IMG/VR virus record: IMGVR_UViG_3300045912_000931
Location: 1 to 20,774 of that record
DNA from: a virus
Direction: 5' to 3' (one strand)
Length of the DNA stretch: 20,774 bases
Under the pieces are notes generated by a model. It was not told the origin of the DNA. It worked only from the letters and a program-made list of their open reading frames with translations, and made no database searches. The translations under genes were made by a program, and so were the position numbers. Shown piece after piece: positions 8,490-20,675 of the stretch. Positions within the stretch are counted from its first letter, which is position 1, and every line of letters starts with the position of its first letter.

Positions 8490-10986
8490 TCAGAGATTGC
8501 GCCGCGCCCGTTCCATGGCGCGGGCGGCGTCAGCCGCGATCTGGCCTTGCGCGTAGCGGAAGCTGTTCGCGTCAGGCGTCGAGATGTTCATCACGACATT
8601 GACGGGCGGGCGCGTGTCGCGGGCCGAGCCCATCGCGGCGAGCTGGGAGCGCGACAGCACCATCTCGCCCCGCTGCAGGATGGCGGGCACCTCGTCGGCA
8701 CGCAGTCCCGCCATGCCGCCGCCATGCAGGCGTGGCGCGCCGGCAAAGGCGAGCGCCGGTACGAGCCGCTGCGGCGCGGGCGCACCGACGATGCCGCCCG
8801 CATGGAAGATGCCCGACAGGATGCCGCCACCGCCGCCGAACAGATTGCCGAAGATCCCGCCGCCGCTCCCCATGCCGCCGAGCGCGTTGGCGAGCGGCCC
8901 GAGGATCGCCGAGCGCAGCGCGATGCGGGTGATGTCGGCCAGGATGCTGTCGGCGAGCGCCTTGAAGTCGAACTTGCCGGGTCGTCACGAACTTGGCGAC
9001 GGCGTCCTCGGCCGACCGAAAGGCGCTGGTGAGCGCATTGCCGAGGCCCTTGCCCCAGTTCGCGGCTTCTTCCGCGTAGCGCGCGAGTTCGTCCCTTACG
9101 GCCGCCCAACCAGTTGCGGCCTCGTCAGCCGCCGACTTGATCTCCCGACCGGCTTCGCGGCTGGCTGCAGCGGCACGTCCGGCCGAGCCTCTGGCGCCCG
9201 CTCCATCACCTGCCTCATCGCCACTGCCGCCACCGATCGCGCCGAACGCGGTGTCAAGTCGCTCCGTCGCGGCAGCAGCCTCATCGATCTGGGTGTTCGC
9301 TCCAGCCATCGCCTCGCGGAGGGCGGCGACCGACTCCAGCGGCGCGCCGGCAAGTTCACCAAGCGCATTCGCCGTTTCACGGGCGCTCTCGGCCGCGCGA
9401 CGGGCATCCTCCGCGAAGGCGGAGAATCCGAGATCCGGAACGCGAAATGCATCGGTCTCGAAGGCGGCCGCAAAAGCATCGCGCGCAGCCGCACCAGCGC
9501 CTTCGGCGGCGCCCGCGAACTGGTTTTCGATCCGGCCAAGATCGATATCCGGAACGAGTCTGATTTCGGTCTCGATGCCGATCGCTGAAAGCGCGGCGCC
9601 AATCCCCCGCACCAGGCCGTTGATGCCGCGCGTGGCGCCGTTCAGCATCCATTCGACGGCGGCGATCAGCGCATTGGCCGCTCGGATCGTGAAGTCGCCG
9701 ATCGCTGCCGGGAGTCGACTCCAAATCGCCACCATGGCGTCGAACGCGCCCTGGAAGACGTTGACGGTCCGATTGCCGAAAGCGACGACGGCATCGAGGG
9801 CGCCTTGCAGCGCGTCGGCGACGTTCGCCTGAATGCCGAGCCAGGCTGCGGCAATCCGGTTCTTCAGCACCTCGGCGAGCAGACCGATCCGGTCCCACAC
9901 TTCACGCGCCACATCGCCCAGCAGATTGAGCGCCGCGCCGAAGCCGCCAGTCGCCTGCACGAGCCGCCCGAACTGATAGATCAGCTCACCCGCCGCCACG
10001 ACCAGCGCGCCGATCCCGGTGCGGATGATCGCCCCGCGCAGGAAAACGAGCGCAGTGGCAAGACCACGCACCGAGACGGCAGCTACCACCATGCTGGCGA
10101 CGAAGCGCCCCGCCATGAGCCCGACGAAGGCGGTGGCGATCGAGGCAAGCCGTCCGAGATTGTCGAACAGAAGCCGAATGGCCTGCCCGAGCGGACCGGT
10201 CGTGCGTGAGATCGCGGCCAGCGCATCAGCAACGGCTTCGAGCGCCGGCGCGGCGGCGACAGCCAGTTGGTTCGACAGGCCGCGCCAGATCAGACCGAGG
10301 CGAGAGATAGCGTCATTGGTACGCTCGATCTGAGCCGCGTCCTGTTGCGACACCACGACCCCGAAGTCCCGCACGTCCTGTGTCGCCGTCCTGAGTGTCG
10401 CCGTGTCGATGCGCAGGAAGGTGAGCGCGGCGCGGTCGCCGAAGAGCTGGGAGGCGACCGCCGCACGCTCGGCCTCGGGCACGTAACGGGCGAGAGCCTC
10501 CTGGATGGCGGCGATGCGCTTGTCGAGGGGAAGGCGCTGCAGTTCCTGAGAGGTCAGCCTGAGACGTTCGAGCGCACCGACCGCGGCTCCGGTTCCGGCT
10601 GCTACCTGGCTGAGACGCCGGGTCAGTTGGATCGTCGCCTGCTCGATTTCGCCCATGGACACGCCGGCAAGATCGCCGGCGCGCTCCAGCACCTGGATGC
10701 TCTCGACGGTGGTGCCGAGCGAAGCGGCGAGCTTGGCCTGATTGTCGATCACCTGCAGGCCGGAGCGGATCATCGCCGCTGCGCCCGCTGCAAACGCCGC
10801 CGCCGCCGCAGCCGCTGCTATCTGGAGCCGGCGATAGAAGGCGGCGACGCGCGTGTTGGCGGCATCCATTTCGCGCGACAGCCGGCGCATGCCCTGTTCA
10901 CCCGCATCGCCGATGCCCTGCAGCTCGGCGCGCACCTCACGGACGCCGACGACGGCCAGGCGCACGGAGACGCGTTTCTCAGCCAT
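8490..10986 (-). pseudogene. Tail tape measure protein, split by a single-base frameshift
   Basis: The gene encodes an alanine-rich, largely helical tape measure protein, which sets tail length and is ejected with the DNA. The N-terminus (MAEKRVSVRLAVVGVREVRA) and the coiled region around residues 20-60 are typical of tape measures from alphaproteobacterial phages. Hydrophobic helices follow at about 55-75 and 290-350. The frame runs well to KFVTT near 8982, then becomes Arg/Pro-rich noise. The true continuation GKFDFKALADSILAD starts one base away and runs to 8490, ending in a glycine-rich stretch and a VNVVMNISTPD-type C-terminal domain. Dropping one C:G pair from the run at 8979-8981 gives an intact 831-residue product. 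Without correction, translation stops at 8572 with a scrambled C-terminus. The start overlaps the upstream chaperone extension by eight bases. Confidence 0.85.
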
Positions 10987-11308
10987 CCTGTTCAGCCCTT
11001 ACTTGCGCGTTAAGGCCGCGCACCATCATTGCCTCGATATCCGGCAAGAGCTCCGCGCAGATGAGTGTGTTGAGCCCGAGTGCCTCAGCGACCGCGAGGG
11101 CCGCGGTCATGTCGAACCCCAGGACTGCGCCAGGGATGGCACGCAACTGGCCGGTGAGCCGCAAGGCGAGATCCCAGACCTGCCAGCCTTCGAGGGTATG
11201 GGGGCGGTTCAGGACGGCGGGGCACTCGGCACAAGTGCCGCGACAGGATCGGCAATACTGGTCGCCCCCGCTGAAATGCCACTCGGCAAGGGCGCGGAGC
11301 CTTTTTTT
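10979..11308 (-). CDS. Tail assembly chaperone T-like extension (read by frameshift)
   Basis: Downstream of the A7 run, a second frame carries clear coding signs for about 109 residues. First comes a four-cysteine cluster (YCRSCRGTCAECP, spacing C-x2-C-x3-C-x2-C), then NRPHTLEGWQVWDLALRL, then a helical segment ending before the tape-measure start. No ATG, GTG or TTG occurs in this frame between the A7 run and the cysteine cluster, so independent initiation is unlikely. Fusion to the upstream reading frame by ribosomal slippage is the natural model, as for the T part of lambda gpGT. From the frame that enters the A7 run the shift needed is -2 (or +1), giving a product of about 222 residues. 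The stop overlaps the tape-measure ATG region. The cysteine set may bind zinc; that is inference. Confidence 0.6.
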   Translation of the reverse strand, partial: KKRLRALAEWHFSGGDQYCRSCRGTCAECPAVLNRPHTLEGWQVWDLALRLTGQLRAIPGAVLGFDMTAALAVAEALGLNTLICAELLPDIEAMMVRGLNAQVRAEQDG

Positions 11309-11645
11309 CCGCTTCCAGCAGCAGACCCTTCGAGACGTAGCGCAGCTGGAAGGCCTCGAAGAGCGGCAGGATATCGAGGAGGGCATCGATCCCCTCCGGC
11401 GAGACCGGCACAGGGTTGCCGTCGGCATCGCCGACGCCCTCCCAGTCCTCGACCACGAGCCGCGCCAGCGCCTTGGCCATGGCGACCGCTATGGTCTCGT
11501 TGGAGGCTCCTTCGGGCAGGCTGGTGACGGTCGGATCGCTGCGCGCCGCCGCCATGAGTGCGGTGGTGAGCGGCCCGAGGTGCAGGCGCACGCCGTGGCC
11601 GAGATCGAGCCAGCGCGGCTCGCGGGAAAGATCGAGACGGATCAT
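11085..11645 (-). CDS. Tail assembly chaperone, G-like N-terminal part
   Basis: The ATG at 11645, with GAGGA seven bases upstream, opens a helical acidic protein (MIRLDLSREPRWLDLGHGVR, then LARLVVEDWEGVGDADGNPV and IDALLDILPLFEAFQLRYV) lying between tail tube and tape measure, the place of lambda genes G/T. The first 114 residues look genuine. After the run of seven A (11302-11308) the literal frame becomes Arg/Pro-rich and continues to 11085, which looks like noise. A -1 shift at the run gives a 30-residue tail (starting GSAPLPSGISAGAT) ending at 11209, similar to the normal C-terminus I recall for this family, for a total of 145 residues, close to lambda gpG. A -2 shift enters the cysteine-rich extension. 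G proteins guide tail tube polymerisation around the tape measure; the role here is inferred from context. Confidence 0.7.
   Translation of the reverse strand: MIRLDLSREPRWLDLGHGVRLHLGPLTTALMAAARSDPTVTSLPEGASNETIAVAMAKALARLVVEDWEGVGDADGNPVPVSPEGIDALLDILPLFEAFQLRYVSKGLLLEAEKKAPRPCRVAFQRGRPVLPILSRHLCRVPRRPEPPPYPRRLAGLGSRLAAHRPVACHPWRSPGVRHDRGPRGR
11302..11308 (-). other. A7 slippery run / frameshift site in the tail chaperone gene
   Basis: On the minus strand the codons GCG GAA AAA AAG GCT contain seven consecutive A residues. The phase gives A-AAA-AAG, the same heptamer and phase as the E. coli dnaX slippery site. Both lysine tRNAs can re-pair after a slip of one or two bases, because every shifted codon is still AAA. 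A -1 slip leads to a short tail and stop at 11209; a -2 slip leads to the cysteine-rich extension. A single missing A (ancestral A8) would explain the same pattern, because A8 would put the short tail in frame and make the extension reachable by an ordinary -1 slip. Confidence 0.6.
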
Positions 11646-11655
11646 GGATGCATCC

Positions 11656-12927
11656 TCATGCGTAGCTGGTGACGTCGTTCAGGAGATGGGCGCGCAGCAT
11701 GGTGCCCTCGCTGTCGTCGAAGGCGGCGCGCCAGTCGAAGCTCGCCTCGACCCCGCCAGGACCGGAGACGGCGTATTTGGGCTTGGGCAGGAAGACACGC
11801 GGCAGCTCGAACCGCAGCGCGTAGCCTTCGGGGAAGGTGAAGCCGTAATCGAGTGCGACGGGATCGCCATTGGCGGCCTCGGCGACCAGCGTCGCGCCGT
11901 CGAAGCGCACCGACATCGAGCCTTCGGAGGACGCGAAGGTGGGGTCCGCCGCCTCGATCTTGCCGTCCTCGCGGATCACCCGCACCCTTTCGAGATTGTT
12001 CGAGAAGGTGAGACTGCCGCCGGTGACACCTGCCAGCGCCGATCCGCCACGCCTGATGAAGCCGCGCCCCTGGCTGAAGCGGCGCAGCGAGAAAGCGTCA
12101 GGACTCCCATCGACGGTGGCGGCGAAGCGCTCCTCGCCCTGCGCCACCAGCTGCAGCCGGGCGTTGGCCGGGCCTTCCTGGCCCATCTCGAAATTGATGC
12201 TCTCCATCACCGTGCCGAGGTGGCGGAAGAAGACCGGCGTCGTGAGCTTGGGGTGGCCGATCTCGATCGTGTAGCTCGGGATGTCGTCGGCGCCGCTCTC
12301 CCAGACATGGGCGTAGCCGCCGCCGGTCAGCGTCGGCGCCGAACCTGCCGCGGCAGAGGCGGAAATCGTGAAGGCGTTCCCGGTCGGTCCGGCGACATCG
12401 AACACGATCACGAGCGCCTGGGTGCTGGTCGGCCGGGAATAGGTGCATTTGGCGATCTCTGCATCGGCCGAGGCGTTGAGATCGTCGACCAGCTGATCGA
12501 CGGTCTGGGTGACGGTCGCCTGGATCTCGGTCTCGTTGCCCGAGGGCGTCCCGGAGACGAACGTCCAGACGGTACCATTGAGCGCGATCGTGTCGCTGGG
12601 CGACGGATTGGCCGCGAAGGCGATCGAGCCGGAGGCGTTCACCGACGTCGTCACGGGATCGCCGAACAGGCCGGTCAGCCAGAAGCCGGTGCCACGCAGG
12701 TCGAACGGGATATCGATCTGCCCCTCATCGGTGATGAGGCCGCGATAGGGATCCTGCGCGTTGCGCCCGCGTCCCAGCAGCGGGTCATCGCCGAGCGGCT
12801 GGGCCGAGGACAGGTCTGTCGACTTGAAGTCGAGGCTCCGGTAGCCGGACAGCGGAGCCACGCCGTAACTCGCCTCGCGGCAAGCCTTCAGCGTGGCGTC
12901 CGCGCCGTAAGCGCGCACCTTGGGCAT
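11656..12927 (-). CDS. Phage tail tube protein (Phage_tube_2-like)
   Basis: This 423-residue beta-rich protein resembles the major tail tube proteins of alphaproteobacterial siphoviruses. It opens with KVRAYGADATLKACREASYGVAP and DIPFDLRGTGFWLTGLFGDP, typical of that family. Residues about 100-200 form an extra module (SDTIALNGTVWTFVSG, then VDQLVDDLNASADAEIAKCTYS) found in many longer tail tube proteins and probably displayed on the outside of the tube. The tube fold resumes after 210 (YTIEIGHPKLTTPVFFRHLG) and continues to the C-terminus. The ATG at 12927 has CAGGAG six bases upstream, a strong site consistent with a protein needed in many copies. It lies between the tail terminator-like and chaperone genes, the normal place for a tube gene. 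Confidence 0.82.
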   Translation of the reverse strand: MPKVRAYGADATLKACREASYGVAPLSGYRSLDFKSTDLSSAQPLGDDPLLGRGRNAQDPYRGLITDEGQIDIPFDLRGTGFWLTGLFGDPVTTSVNASGSIAFAANPSPSDTIALNGTVWTFVSGTPSGNETEIQATVTQTVDQLVDDLNASADAEIAKCTYSRPTSTQALVIVFDVAGPTGNAFTISASAAAGSAPTLTGGGYAHVWESGADDIPSYTIEIGHPKLTTPVFFRHLGTVMESINFEMGQEGPANARLQLVAQGEERFAATVDGSPDAFSLRRFSQGRGFIRRGGSALAGVTGGSLTFSNNLERVRVIREDGKIEAADPTFASSEGSMSVRFDGATLVAEAANGDPVALDYGFTFPEGYALRFELPRVFLPKPKYAVSGPGGVEASFDWRAAFDDSEGTMLRAHLLNDVTSYA

Positions 12928-14765: not shown

Positions 14766-16808
14766 CTATGCGCCCGGGTTCTTGTAGAGGCCGCGCCAGT
14801 CGATGGCCTTGGCGCCGAAGTCGAGGCGGCACTTGATCTCGACGCCGTCGACGTCGAAGCCGTTGCGCGTCTCGACGTAAGCGCCCTGCTGACCTTCGAG
14901 ATAGGCGTACTCGATCGTGTCGATCTGGTTCGGACTGGCCGCCAGATACCAGGCGGTTTCGCTGGCGGCATCGAGCCGCGGCTCGCTGATCGGGGCGAGT
15001 GTCCGGATCGACTGCGGGACGACGCTCGCGGTCGCGGCGGGCACGAGGTTCTGGGCGACCAGCTGCTCGGCCTTCAGTTCCAGCGAGGCGGGCACGATCA
15101 GGAAGGCAGGACGGACGTTCAGCACCGTCTTCTTGTCGAGGCCCGTCTGCTTGGCCATCGCGGCGCGGGCGGCACCGACCGCATCGACCGCGAGTGCCGC
15201 GCCGGTGCCTGCGAGGTTCTTGTGGTTGGCGTGAAACAGCGCGTTGCCGTCGGCCATGGCCGGGTTGGCGGTGATGATCCCCCAGACCACATCGCTTTCG
15301 AGCTGCGCGATGGAGTTGCCATACATCGCCGGGATCCGGGTGAAGGCGTCGAGATCGTCGTTGATCAGCGTCTGGCGGGTGATCGCGACCACCCGGCCAT
15401 AGGTCTTGACCTTGTAGCTCTCCTTCGACTCGCCGAGCGTGCCGCGCTTGAACTCGCCGCTTTCGCCCACCTCCAGCAGTTGCGGGGCTTCGCCAAGCTG
15501 GACCCGGTGCATCGCCTTGAAGTCGGTCGCGAGCACCTGGCGGCAGAACAGCATGAAGGTGCGAGGATAGGCCTCGTAGGCCTGCCGCAGGGTCTTGTTG
15601 GTGACGGCGGACAGGATCTCGGGGAAGTCCGAGGTGGAATGCAGCGCGCGCGTCGCCACCTCGTCGCGCGACAGGCCGCGCATGTTCACCCCGGCATTGC
15701 CGAGGCTTTCGCGGGCGAGTTCGAGCAGGGTCATGCCGCGGTACTGGCGCGCGGCATCCTCCAGCTGGAAGAGCGTCGGGCTGTAGCGGTGCAGGAGCGC
15801 ATTCGCCACCGCGTCGCGGCGAGTGATGCGCTCGTCGTGGCCACCGAGCGGGACCGACACCTGGCTGAACGTACGGGTGTCGTCCGACTTCGCGGCGACC
15901 TGATCGAGGATCAGGCGGCGGGACTCGTCGACGCTGATGCCGCGCTTGACCAGATCCTCGGCGAAGCCGCGCTCAAGGTTCAATCGGCCTGCCAGATCGT
16001 AAATGGTGGAGACGCGCTCGCGCTCGGTATCGCGGGCCCGGCTGACGAGAGCGTCGGCGTTCTCGGTGGCCGCGTGGGTCGCCTCGGGCTTCGGAGCCTT
16101 CGGCTGCGCGCGGGTTTCGCTGGTGCGGTCCTTCGGTTCCGTCATGGGCGTGGTCTCCTCGGTCGCGACCGTCGTGGTCGTCTGCTCGGCGGCATCAGCT
16201 GCCGGGGTCTTGGGCTGGTCGGTCATCGGGATGGGTCCTTTCATGGTGGAAGGGGCGTCCCGGCGGTGAAGGACGCAATCGTGAAGCGGGGATTGGTTAC
16301 GGAAGCCGGCCGCCGGATCGGCGCCGACCGCTACGGCGGAGACCTCGAAAGGGGTCCAGTCGACGGCACGCCAGAGTTCGCGGGCGGCTTCCGGTTTTGA
16401 GACCTCGAAGCGGTGGACCTGGTAGCCGATGGAGACCGCCCGGATATGGCCGGCCTGGATGTCGCGCCAGATCGGTTCGACATCTGCGCGCTCTGACAGA
16501 CGCACCAGCGCAATGCCCCGGCCGTTCTCGATCCGCGCCGATCCCGGCACGACCGAGCCGATCACCGCGTCGAGCTCGGTCAGTTCGTGCACCGTCAGGA
16601 AGGGCGCCCCGGCGTTCAGCCGTTCGAGCCGGACGTGCGCCGGGTCGAGGCTCAGTTCCTCGTCATAAGGCTCGCCGAAGAAGGTCGCGCGGCGAATGCG
16701 TGCGCCAGCCGACCAGACCACCTCGACGGTGCGGGCCTCTCCATCGGCTGTGTTCGGCGCAAGCTCCGCCACCCGGCGCATGGCCGGCAGTTCGATCATC
16801 GTGTCCAT
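14766..16808 (-). CDS. Prohead protease / major capsid protein fusion
   Basis: This 680-residue protein joins two head functions. Residues 1-170 are an HK97-type prohead protease (peptidase S78/U35): His74 in LTVHELTELD, Ser126 in IRAVSIGYQV and Glu155 in TPFEVSAVAVGAD form the expected catalytic set. Residues 175-250 are a Thr/Pro/Ala/Lys-rich flexible linker, and 250-320 are a helical scaffold-like segment. About 330-680 are the major capsid domain of the type found in protease/capsid fusions (LLELARESLG, then MHRVQLGEAP and DVVWGIITANPAMADGNALF). The protease presumably cuts within the linker during maturation. The ATG at 16808 has an AGGA site. In-frame ATGs at 16226 (AAAGGA) and 16145 (GGAG) also have ribosome binding sites and could yield capsid without protease. 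It follows the portal gene closely. Confidence 0.9.
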   Translation of the reverse strand: MDTMIELPAMRRVAELAPNTADGEARTVEVVWSAGARIRRATFFGEPYDEELSLDPAHVRLERLNAGAPFLTVHELTELDAVIGSVVPGSARIENGRGIALVRLSERADVEPIWRDIQAGHIRAVSIGYQVHRFEVSKPEAARELWRAVDWTPFEVSAVAVGADPAAGFRNQSPLHDCVLHRRDAPSTMKGPIPMTDQPKTPAADAAEQTTTTVATEETTPMTEPKDRTSETRAQPKAPKPEATHAATENADALVSRARDTERERVSTIYDLAGRLNLERGFAEDLVKRGISVDESRRLILDQVAAKSDDTRTFSQVSVPLGGHDERITRRDAVANALLHRYSPTLFQLEDAARQYRGMTLLELARESLGNAGVNMRGLSRDEVATRALHSTSDFPEILSAVTNKTLRQAYEAYPRTFMLFCRQVLATDFKAMHRVQLGEAPQLLEVGESGEFKRGTLGESKESYKVKTYGRVVAITRQTLINDDLDAFTRIPAMYGNSIAQLESDVVWGIITANPAMADGNALFHANHKNLAGTGAALAVDAVGAARAAMAKQTGLDKKTVLNVRPAFLIVPASLELKAEQLVAQNLVPAATASVVPQSIRTLAPISEPRLDAASETAWYLAASPNQIDTIEYAYLEGQQGAYVETRNGFDVDGVEIKCRLDFGAKAIDWRGLYKNPGA
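16145..16158 (-). promoter_or_regulatory. Possible internal ribosome binding site and start for free capsid protein
   Basis: Within the linker of the protease-capsid fusion, GGAG (complement of 16155-16158) stands nine bases before an in-frame ATG at 16145, codon 222. A second candidate lies upstream: AAAGGA (16236-16241) nine bases before the ATG at 16226, codon 195. Starting at either would omit the protease domain and keep the scaffold-like segment plus the capsid. The sites are seen in the sequence; their use is inference. Confidence 0.4.
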
Positions 16809-18329: not shown

Positions 18330-18538
18330 CACCGGTCCCCGCGCGAGAAGCCTGCAAGTCCAGCCACCGGCAGAGGCCGCATGGTTCCCGCGATGGCGCG
18401 TTCGATGGTTCGGATGCGCGCCAGAAGATCCTCGGCCGAGCCGTAGTCGACTGACTTGCCGTCATAGCTGACCCGGGTCGTGCCGCTGGCATAGGCGCGG
18501 CGCAGGGCGGACAGCTCGCTTTCCGTCCAATCGGCCAT
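18329..18538 (-). CDS. gpW-like head-tail connector protein
   Basis: The ATG at 18538 gives a 69-residue protein (MADWTESELSALRRAYASGT, then VSYDGKSVDYGSAEDLLARI) that resembles lambda gpW in size, in the helix-hairpin-helix layout and in its place between large terminase and portal. In lambda, gpW adds to the portal to stabilise packaged DNA and create the binding site for gpFII. The start is chosen over the ATG three codons upstream because it forms a TGATG overlap with the terminase stop, the same junction used repeatedly in this operon. The stop overlaps the portal start the same way. Confidence 0.85.
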   Translation of the reverse strand: MADWTESELSALRRAYASGTTRVSYDGKSVDYGSAEDLLARIRTIERAIAGTMRPLPVAGLAGFSRGDR

Positions 18539-20557
18539 CAGAACCATCCTTCACGCCGCCCGAGCCAGTCCGATCGCCGCTTGGTCTGCGGCGCGGGCCT
18601 TTGCCTGTTGATCTGCCCCGCCGGATCGGCGGGCGCATTCGTGACCCCGAGCTGATCCTCGAGGTCGCGCCATTTCTCGTCGGTCCACCGATCCGCGCCT
18701 GCGATCCAGGCGGCGGCGCGGGCGTAGACCCGGCAATCCAGCGCCTCGTTACGCTCGCGCAGCTTCTGCCATTCGAGCCGCGCGAAGCCGCGCTTGGTGC
18801 GCACCGTCACCAGCTGCTCGCCCACGAACTGCTTCAGCCATTCGTTCTCGACCCAGTGCGGCAGATGCACCGAACCGGGCGGGAACGCGGCGCCGTCGGC
18901 CAGATCCTCCTCGGTCGGCCGTTCCAGCCGCAGGAAGCGGTAGGTCTCGGCCTTGAAGGTCGACACCGCCACGGTCCAGAGCCGGGCCCCGCGCCGCAGG
19001 CGTTTGCCCGCGTCGGTCGCGTCGACATAGGTCGGGCCCGACACCGGGCTCGAACGGTTGAACCCTTCGACGCCCTTCACGGGCGCCACCTGCGCGAACC
19101 CTTGCGCCCGCGCCCAGGAATAGACCGCCGGGGCCTCGTAGCCGGTGTCGATGGCGAGCCGCGCGATCCGCAGATGCGCGCCGCGTTCATGCGGCCAGAA
19201 CCGGTCCAGCAGTGCGGTCAGGTCGCCCCAGGCCTCATGCCGGTCGGGCCCGCCCTCGATCCACGACGTGTTCGACGAGCCAGCTTTCCAGCCCGCGGCC
19301 CCAGGCCCAGACATCGACCTCGATGCGGTCCTTCTGAACGTCGGCCCCTGCGGTCAGGAACAGCCCGCCCGCAGGGACGATGCCTGCTTTCCAGCGCTCG
19401 CGCCGGTCATAGAGCCGCTGCCAGTCCGGTGCCTCGCCGGTCTCGACCCAGGTCTCGCCAAGGATCGTGTTTCGGAACGCCTTGATCGCCTCGTCCGAAC
19501 GCTGGGCCGCCTCCCAGTTGCGTGCGATCCGCTCCCAACTCAGCCAGCCCACCGGCGAATAGAGCGCCGACAGGTGAAAGCCGATGGTGGTCGGATCGGC
19601 GGCAACGGCGGTCGCCCGCCATTCGCCCGCCTCCAGCATCGCCGTCTTGTGGTGCTCGGCGATGGCGCCGTCGCAGCCCTCGCAAGTGTAGGCGGCCGTC
19701 TCCGGCCGACCCTTGTCCCAGCGCAGCCGTTCGAACTTGAGCCATTGCCGATGGCCGCAATGCGGGCACGGCATGAAGAACCGGCGCTGGTCTGAAGCTT
19801 CATATTCCCGTTCGATCCGGCTGAGGCCCCGGATCGTCGGGGTCGAGACCAGGAAGACCTTGCGCCGGTGCGCGAAGGTCAGGGATCGCGCCTCGGCCAG
19901 CGTGACGGGATCGCCTTCCTCGTCGGCAGAGCCCGGATAGGCATCGACCTCGTCGAGGAAAAGGTAGCGCGCCGGCGTCGAGCGCAGCCCGACGGCAGAG
20001 TTCGCCCCGGTCATGATCAGGATGCCGCCCGCAAATTCCTTGGATAGCATGGTGTTGCCGGCGTCGCGCGAGCGGGCGGGCTTCACGCGCATCCGCAGTT
20101 CCGCGCTCTCGTCGATCAGCGGGTCGATCCGCTGGCGCGAGTTGCGTTTCGCCAATTCCACGGTCGGCTGGACCGCGAGCATCGGCCCCGGCGCCTGATG
20201 GATCGCGAAGCCGATCCAGTTGTTCCCGGCCTCGGTCGCGCCGACCTGCGCGGCCTTCATGAAGACGATGCGCTGCACCGCCGCTCCCGGCGAGAGCGCA
20301 TCCATGATGTCGCGCATGTAGGGGGTGCGAGCGGTGCGGTACCGGCCGGGCTCGGCCGACGCACGGCCCGACAGCATTCGGTGCCGGTCCGCCCATTGCG
20401 AGACGGTCAGGTCCGGATCGGGCCGCATCCCGGCGCCCCAGGCGCGCAGGAGGTCAGCGACGCCGTCGAAGTCGGTCAGGTCATCGGACGGCTCACTGTC
20501 TCGCTCAGCGGAATTCCGGCCGGACCTCGGCGAGTTCGTCGAGGTGGGCGCGTACAT
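18538..20557 (-). pseudogene. Phage terminase large subunit (GpA family), frameshifted
   Basis: This is a GpA-type terminase that cuts concatemeric DNA and pumps it into the prohead. The ATPase half is complete: Walker A-like KAAQVGATEAG (near 20226-20262), Walker B LFLDEVDAYPG (near 19935-19970) and the coupling motif VSTPT. A four-cysteine zinc site follows (CPHCGH near 19755-19775 and CEGC near 19675-19690). The nuclease half starts with GADVQKDRIEVDVWAWGRG, then the frame is lost at 19261-19262. The correct continuation (IEGGPDRHEAWGDLTALLDR, with a second acidic site in AIDTGY) is one base away and runs to 18538. Removing one base restores 672 residues, normal for the family. As sequenced, the product stops at 19235 without most of the nuclease. 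The ATG at 20557, with GGAG upstream, overlaps the preceding gene by 53 bases. Confidence 0.88.
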
Positions 20558-20675
20558 GGGTCTCCAGAGCCTTCTGCATCTCGGCCGCCTCCACACCGAG
20601 CTCCGCCGCCATCAGCGCCGCCGCGCGGGACGGCCAATTGACCCATGATACCAACTCCCTGTAAGGGTGACTCAC
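20505..20675 (-). pseudogene. Probable small terminase remnant, 5' end lost
   Basis: The frame ending at 20505 holds a conserved-looking helical segment (VNWPSRAAALMAAELGVEAA, then MQKALETHVRAHLDELAEV) that resembles the C-terminal end of phage terminase small subunits, and it directly precedes the large terminase as such a gene should. Only about 45 residues look native. The frame continues upstream, but that DNA belongs to what appears to be an insertion sequence reading the other way, so the original N-terminal DNA-binding part is missing. A GTG at 20675 with AGAGGA eight bases upstream could start a 56-residue product; ATG codons further upstream (20738) lie inside the presumed element. 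The identification is by position and resemblance, hence moderate confidence. It could instead be a short intact gene of unknown role. Confidence 0.5.

Follow-up and report, generated by a model that had tools for sequence, protein, structure and literature searches.

The tail assembly chaperone gene in the 20,774-nucleotide stretch of viral DNA analysed here (the window) very probably carries an ordinary -1 frameshift site that has recently suffered a one-base lesion, and not an evolved -1/-2 signal, as judged by comparison with its homologues. The lesion itself is probably a sequence or assembly error. In relatives, the short chaperone lies in frame, and the long Cys4/DUF7697 protein is reached only through a -1 relation at A_AAA_AAC. 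The window copy is one base short at this slip site. Two other essential genes of the contig each carry a lone indel that breaks their frame as well, which suggests that the -2, three-frame geometry is a recent lesion. We assign the locus, from its sequence, to the G/GT-type tail assembly chaperones; its family of tailed phages occurs mainly in alphaproteobacteria.

Reading frames of the chaperone locus

The chaperone gene lies on the minus strand between the tail tube protein gene upstream (11656-12927, minus strand; PF18906 Phage_tube_2, 6.5e-46) and the tape-measure ORF (8572-10986, minus strand). Its conserved G-like part (11309-11645) matches the tail assembly chaperone family phrog_313 (9e-17) and ends at an A7 slip run (plus-strand T7, 11302-11308), one of just two A/T runs of at least 7 in a window of 67.7% G+C. 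The minus strand reads ...CTG CTG GAA GCG GAA AAA AAG GCT CCG CGC... at this point, and the G-like frame enters the run as GAA AAA AAG, bearing out the in-phase slippery A_AAA_AAG described by the first-pass annotation of this DNA.

Three frames can be read beyond the run, each much as that annotation had them. The literal ORF (11085-11645, 186 aa) has an Arg/Pro-rich end, dismissed earlier as noise. The -1 frame runs for 30 codons from 11301 to a stop at 11209. The third frame (YCRSCRGTCAEC; 10979-11301) encodes C-x2-C-x3-C-x2-C followed by DUF7697, matches PF24752/DUF7697 (5e-23) and phrog_11212 (8e-27), and stays open as far as 10979, so that it overlaps the beginning of the tape-measure ORF at 10986. 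It contains no ATG, GTG or TTG between the A7 run and the first cysteine, as had been reported, and one ATG farther upstream at 11428, within G. In the window this Cys frame stands at -2/+1 of the G frame, and the -1 relation is absent from this copy. A blastn search of the region against named phages gave no match. Elsewhere in the window, the ORF at 14766-16808 (680 aa) has a capsid domain only at residues 368-677, and the half before it could be a prohead protease fused to the capsid protein.

The slip site in related loci

Protein searches recovered 80 viral and 75 genome loci, and four further scans added others. The Cys frame lies at -1 from the G frame in 149 of the 151 loci of the first set in which both halves were located. 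In the extended set this relation, together with an in-phase XXXYYYZ heptamer, is found at 203 of roughly 205 distinct loci, the exceptions being the window and locus L085. The motifs at the -1 loci are A_AAA_AAC (197), G_GGA_AAC (5) and A_AAA_AAA (1), and locus L049 keeps the -1 relation at A_AAA_AAG. The common motif has in places been swapped for other -1 motifs (G_GGA_AAC, A_AAA_AAA), which shows that what is kept is the -1 relation.

All ten closest relatives read GAAAAAAACG at the slip site, where the A7 run is followed by C; in the window, GG follows directly. Aligned with them, the window is one base short immediately after A7, between 11301 and 11302, and the base is present in 10 of 10. 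This missing base makes the frame relation appear as -2/+1, and it also turns the relatives' ordinary 0-frame ending into what looks like a -1 tail in the window (11209-11301). That ending has 30 residues in most loci and a single residue in 23, so it is no constrained domain. The earlier proposal that the run supports both -1 and -2 slips, yielding a short and a long chaperone, is therefore not supported, the homologues having plain -1 sites and the tail being their in-frame ending; nor is -2 borne out as the evolved relation between the frames.

The competing suggestion, that a base was lost from an ordinary -1 site, stands in its main part; its A8 origin does not hold as the simplest history and was set aside, every one of the ten nearest relatives having A7C. 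The lost base was more simply a C than an eighth A, because those relatives have A7C and not A8. A change from C to A followed by loss of one A could also have produced the window sequence, and an A8 slip site with the -1 relation exists in a distant phage, Nostoc phage Nsp-JY21 (L159). Two separate chaperone ORFs are annotated in that phage (L159:2166-2863), with the long form unannotated. In locus L120 (L120:90-110), the Glu codon at the start of the run has become TAA, a change that would cut the chaperone short there.

The first-pass annotation had held that homologues with an in-frame non-repetitive codon there and no conservation of the cysteine frame would reduce the site to a sequencing or mutational indel. 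The alignment does expose an indel, yet conservation of the cysteine frame is strong. Between the window and its relatives, dN/dS is 0.08-0.18 in the Cys frame, similar to the G part (0.05-0.17 against ten relatives), and exceeds 1 in the literal and short-tail frames, neither of which is conserved as protein. Values are likewise low for the tape-measure protein on either side of its own break and for the large terminase against its close relatives. The low Cys-frame dN/dS indicates that the long form was under selection until very recently. As for how this form is reached, the Cys frame has no ATG, GTG or TTG between its upstream stop and the first cysteine in 142 of 206 loci, pointing to frameshifting rather than re-initiation; internal initiation of the Cys ORF was ruled out on these grounds.

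A stem-loop downstream of the slip site

An RNAalifold consensus places a conserved stem-loop 7 nt after the heptamer in the relatives, and the same hairpin appears in the window's fold (11263-11294, minus strand; arms 11283-11294 and 11263-11274). It is a presumed frameshift stimulator, and stem-loop and slip site together presumably form a complete canonical -1 cassette. Across 160 distinct sequences, 95% of cells pair in the stem; sliding one arm lowers this to 42-59%. The middle Gly of the GGG(D) stretch is encoded by GGG in 138 of 153 Gly codons, compared with 16% elsewhere in the frame, and the opposite Leu uses only CTC or CTT, though CTG is the commonest Leu codon elsewhere. Such synonymous choices suggest a constraint from RNA pairing and not from the protein.

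Support for the stem-loop comes mainly from codon choice and the slid controls, as two-sided covariation is scarce. RNAalifold counted zero two-sided compensatory changes among 30 sequences; a C-G to G-C change is found in 3 loci, and both sides of the outermost pair change in distant loci whose arms read GGCCC/GGGCC (L304 and L305 among them). Single-sequence folding gives the window (-0.1) and L004 unremarkable z-scores, strong ones being confined to some relatives (L126, -4.2; L149, -3.6). An Rfam search with the stem-loop returned no match.

Three frame breaks in one contig

A census of reading phase along the window turned up three persistent single-base shifts unique to it and no more, all inside genes; relatives' contigs have 0-3 such shifts each, counted whether inside genes or not. 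Besides the loss in the chaperone (-1 near 11301, against 10 of 10 relatives), there is a one-base insertion in the tape-measure gene (+1 near 8979, within 8979-8983, against 10 of 10) and another in the large terminase gene (+1 near 19261, within 19255-19265, against both of the two relatives covering the site). The true tape-measure C-terminus consequently lies in another frame (ORF 8490-8873), and family models split accordingly. The terminase (18538-20596, minus strand) is divided into two ORFs, 19235-20596 and 18538-19314, with positions 1-113 of its GpA_nuclease domain (PF20454) in one ORF and 111-293 in the next. Neither of these two breaks has a slip signal, and no nonsense codons were seen in the window frames compared. 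It is simpler to trace all three lone breaks to a single cause, whether a damaged copy or consensus error, than to invoke an evolved signal at one.

Discussion

A rival reading is an evolved dual-slip site. From the G frame, a -1 slip would give the short tail and a -2 slip the long Cys4 form, the three frames and the in-phase A_AAA_AAG are as described, and -2 pairing is possible with both Lys tRNAs able to re-pair on AAA within A7. Shifts of -2 are used by phage Mu and arteriviruses (PMC5009743), and arteriviruses have a dual -2/-1 site (PMC6675879). We nevertheless consider it extremely improbable that this site evolved for dual slippage. A scan for the GA7GG pattern returned L313 alone, which is the same contig as L049 and keeps the -1 relation; no second locus with the window's geometry was found; neither the default frame nor the -1 tail shows conservation as protein; and the contig holds two other lone frame breaks.

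Other one-base-short sites do occur in the family, as A6C, one A short, in six further loci (L085 and L314-L318), most of which look otherwise intact and carry no other tell-tale damage. L314 is a decayed prophage copy: it has three frame shifts, and a nonsense codon (WQV*) interrupts its Cys frame. Two sister contigs, L316 (1240) and L317 (reverse strand, 4582), both have A6C; they share 90% identity, no frame break separates them, and their Cys frame is purified (dN/dS of about 0.2). Their A6C may be inherited, or may be a parallel homopolymer error. Long homopolymers favour sequencing errors as well as genuine slippage. When the one-base-short label is placed on a tree of 195 loci, its 7 rows require 6 changes, a count as low in 33 of 500 shuffles; the label is thus mostly scattered, and an inherited one-base-short clade was rejected as not significantly clustered. 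The -2/+1 relation is confined to the window and the A6 variants and is not conserved among relatives.

These variants bear on whether the window's deletion is real. It might be a genuine one-base deletion tolerated in a living phage because slippage on A7, either ribosomal -2 or by an RNA polymerase adding an A, still yields enough long form. The recurrence of A6C, including in the sister pair, speaks for this, but the window's tape-measure and terminase genes are also broken where there is no slip site, and the one-base-short loci are scattered on the tree; we regard such a tolerated deletion as very unlikely. It is likewise very unlikely that the one-base-short sites as a group (A7GG in the window; A6C in L085 and L315-L318, above all in L316/L317) are real, inherited and functional. 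If they were, the family could replace -1 by -2/+1 ribosomal shifting, or by transcriptional slippage, at one and the same site and keep its long chaperone. A genuine lesion, in a prophage or phage that is decaying or defective, is possible, if doubtful: three frame breaks in 20.8 kb would fit, and other family members have decayed (L314, and L120 with its stop just before the run), but the compared frames hold no nonsense codons, substitutions look strongly purified, and all three changes are single-base, like consensus errors. An ordinary -1 site that has lost one base, probably through sequence or assembly error, is the reading that we prefer.

For intact relatives, the anatomy of the locus suggests that a minority of ribosomes would slip -1 at A_AAA_AAC to make a long GT-like form, which in turn would help the tube to assemble on the tape measure. 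AlphaFold predicts the Cys4 and DUF7697 extension with confidence (pLDDT 92) as a domain made up largely of helices. Searches of the PDB by sequence and by fold with the Cys domain gave nothing usable; fold matches among viral proteins are weak (E 0.08-1), and several are tape-measure chaperones, which is consistent with a T-like role. DUF7697 and phrog_11212 are, to our knowledge, listed without function, and our literature search found no paper naming DUF7697. The loci compared here indicate that DUF7697 (PF24752) and phrog_11212, at 10979-11140 in the window, form the C-terminal portion of a tail assembly chaperone made by -1 frameshifting. The mechanism is already known; the new details, as far as we found, are the stem-loop and the link to DUF7697.

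These findings remove a false claim of -1/-2 slippage. Additionally, the cassette of stem-loop and slip site, spread over some 200 loci, mostly in alphaproteobacterial phages and prophages, is useful for annotation because gene callers split or miss the long form, as in the Nostoc phage. Contigs with broken frames, like the window, need flagging before they are used to infer slip geometry.

Depending on lineage, the chaperone locus of tailed phages relies on a -1, -2 or +1 shift, with lambda G/GT as the model (PMC5009743). The loci described here resemble lambda G/GT in the position of the gene between tube and tape measure, in a short G and a long -1 form produced at an XXXYYYZ heptamer, and in an extension that has no start of its own. 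They differ from it in their A_AAA_AAC motif, conserved downstream stem-loop and Cys4/DUF7697 extension, and the window copy differs further in its -2/+1 relation. That literal relation matches the -2 chaperone frameshift of phage Mu (cited in PMC5009743), unlike the -1 of the relatives. Arterivirus nsp2, with its -2/-1 dual frameshifting (PMC6675879), provides a precedent for a three-outcome slip site, but the animal-virus site is conserved across its group, whereas nothing comparable is conserved at the phage locus; a dual site of that kind would have each of its three frames conserved, and here dN/dS is above 1 in both the literal and the short-tail frame. A closer counterpart is Rhodobacter phage RcKemmy (MW677517; cluster RcC, PMC8601537), whose genes 15 and 16 are a homologous chaperone pair, annotated as a chaperone and a joined (frameshifted) chaperone CDS. 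RcKemmy shares the -1 relation and a stem-loop in the matching position, and differs in its heptamer, G_GGA_AAC, and in an extension of about 52% identity.
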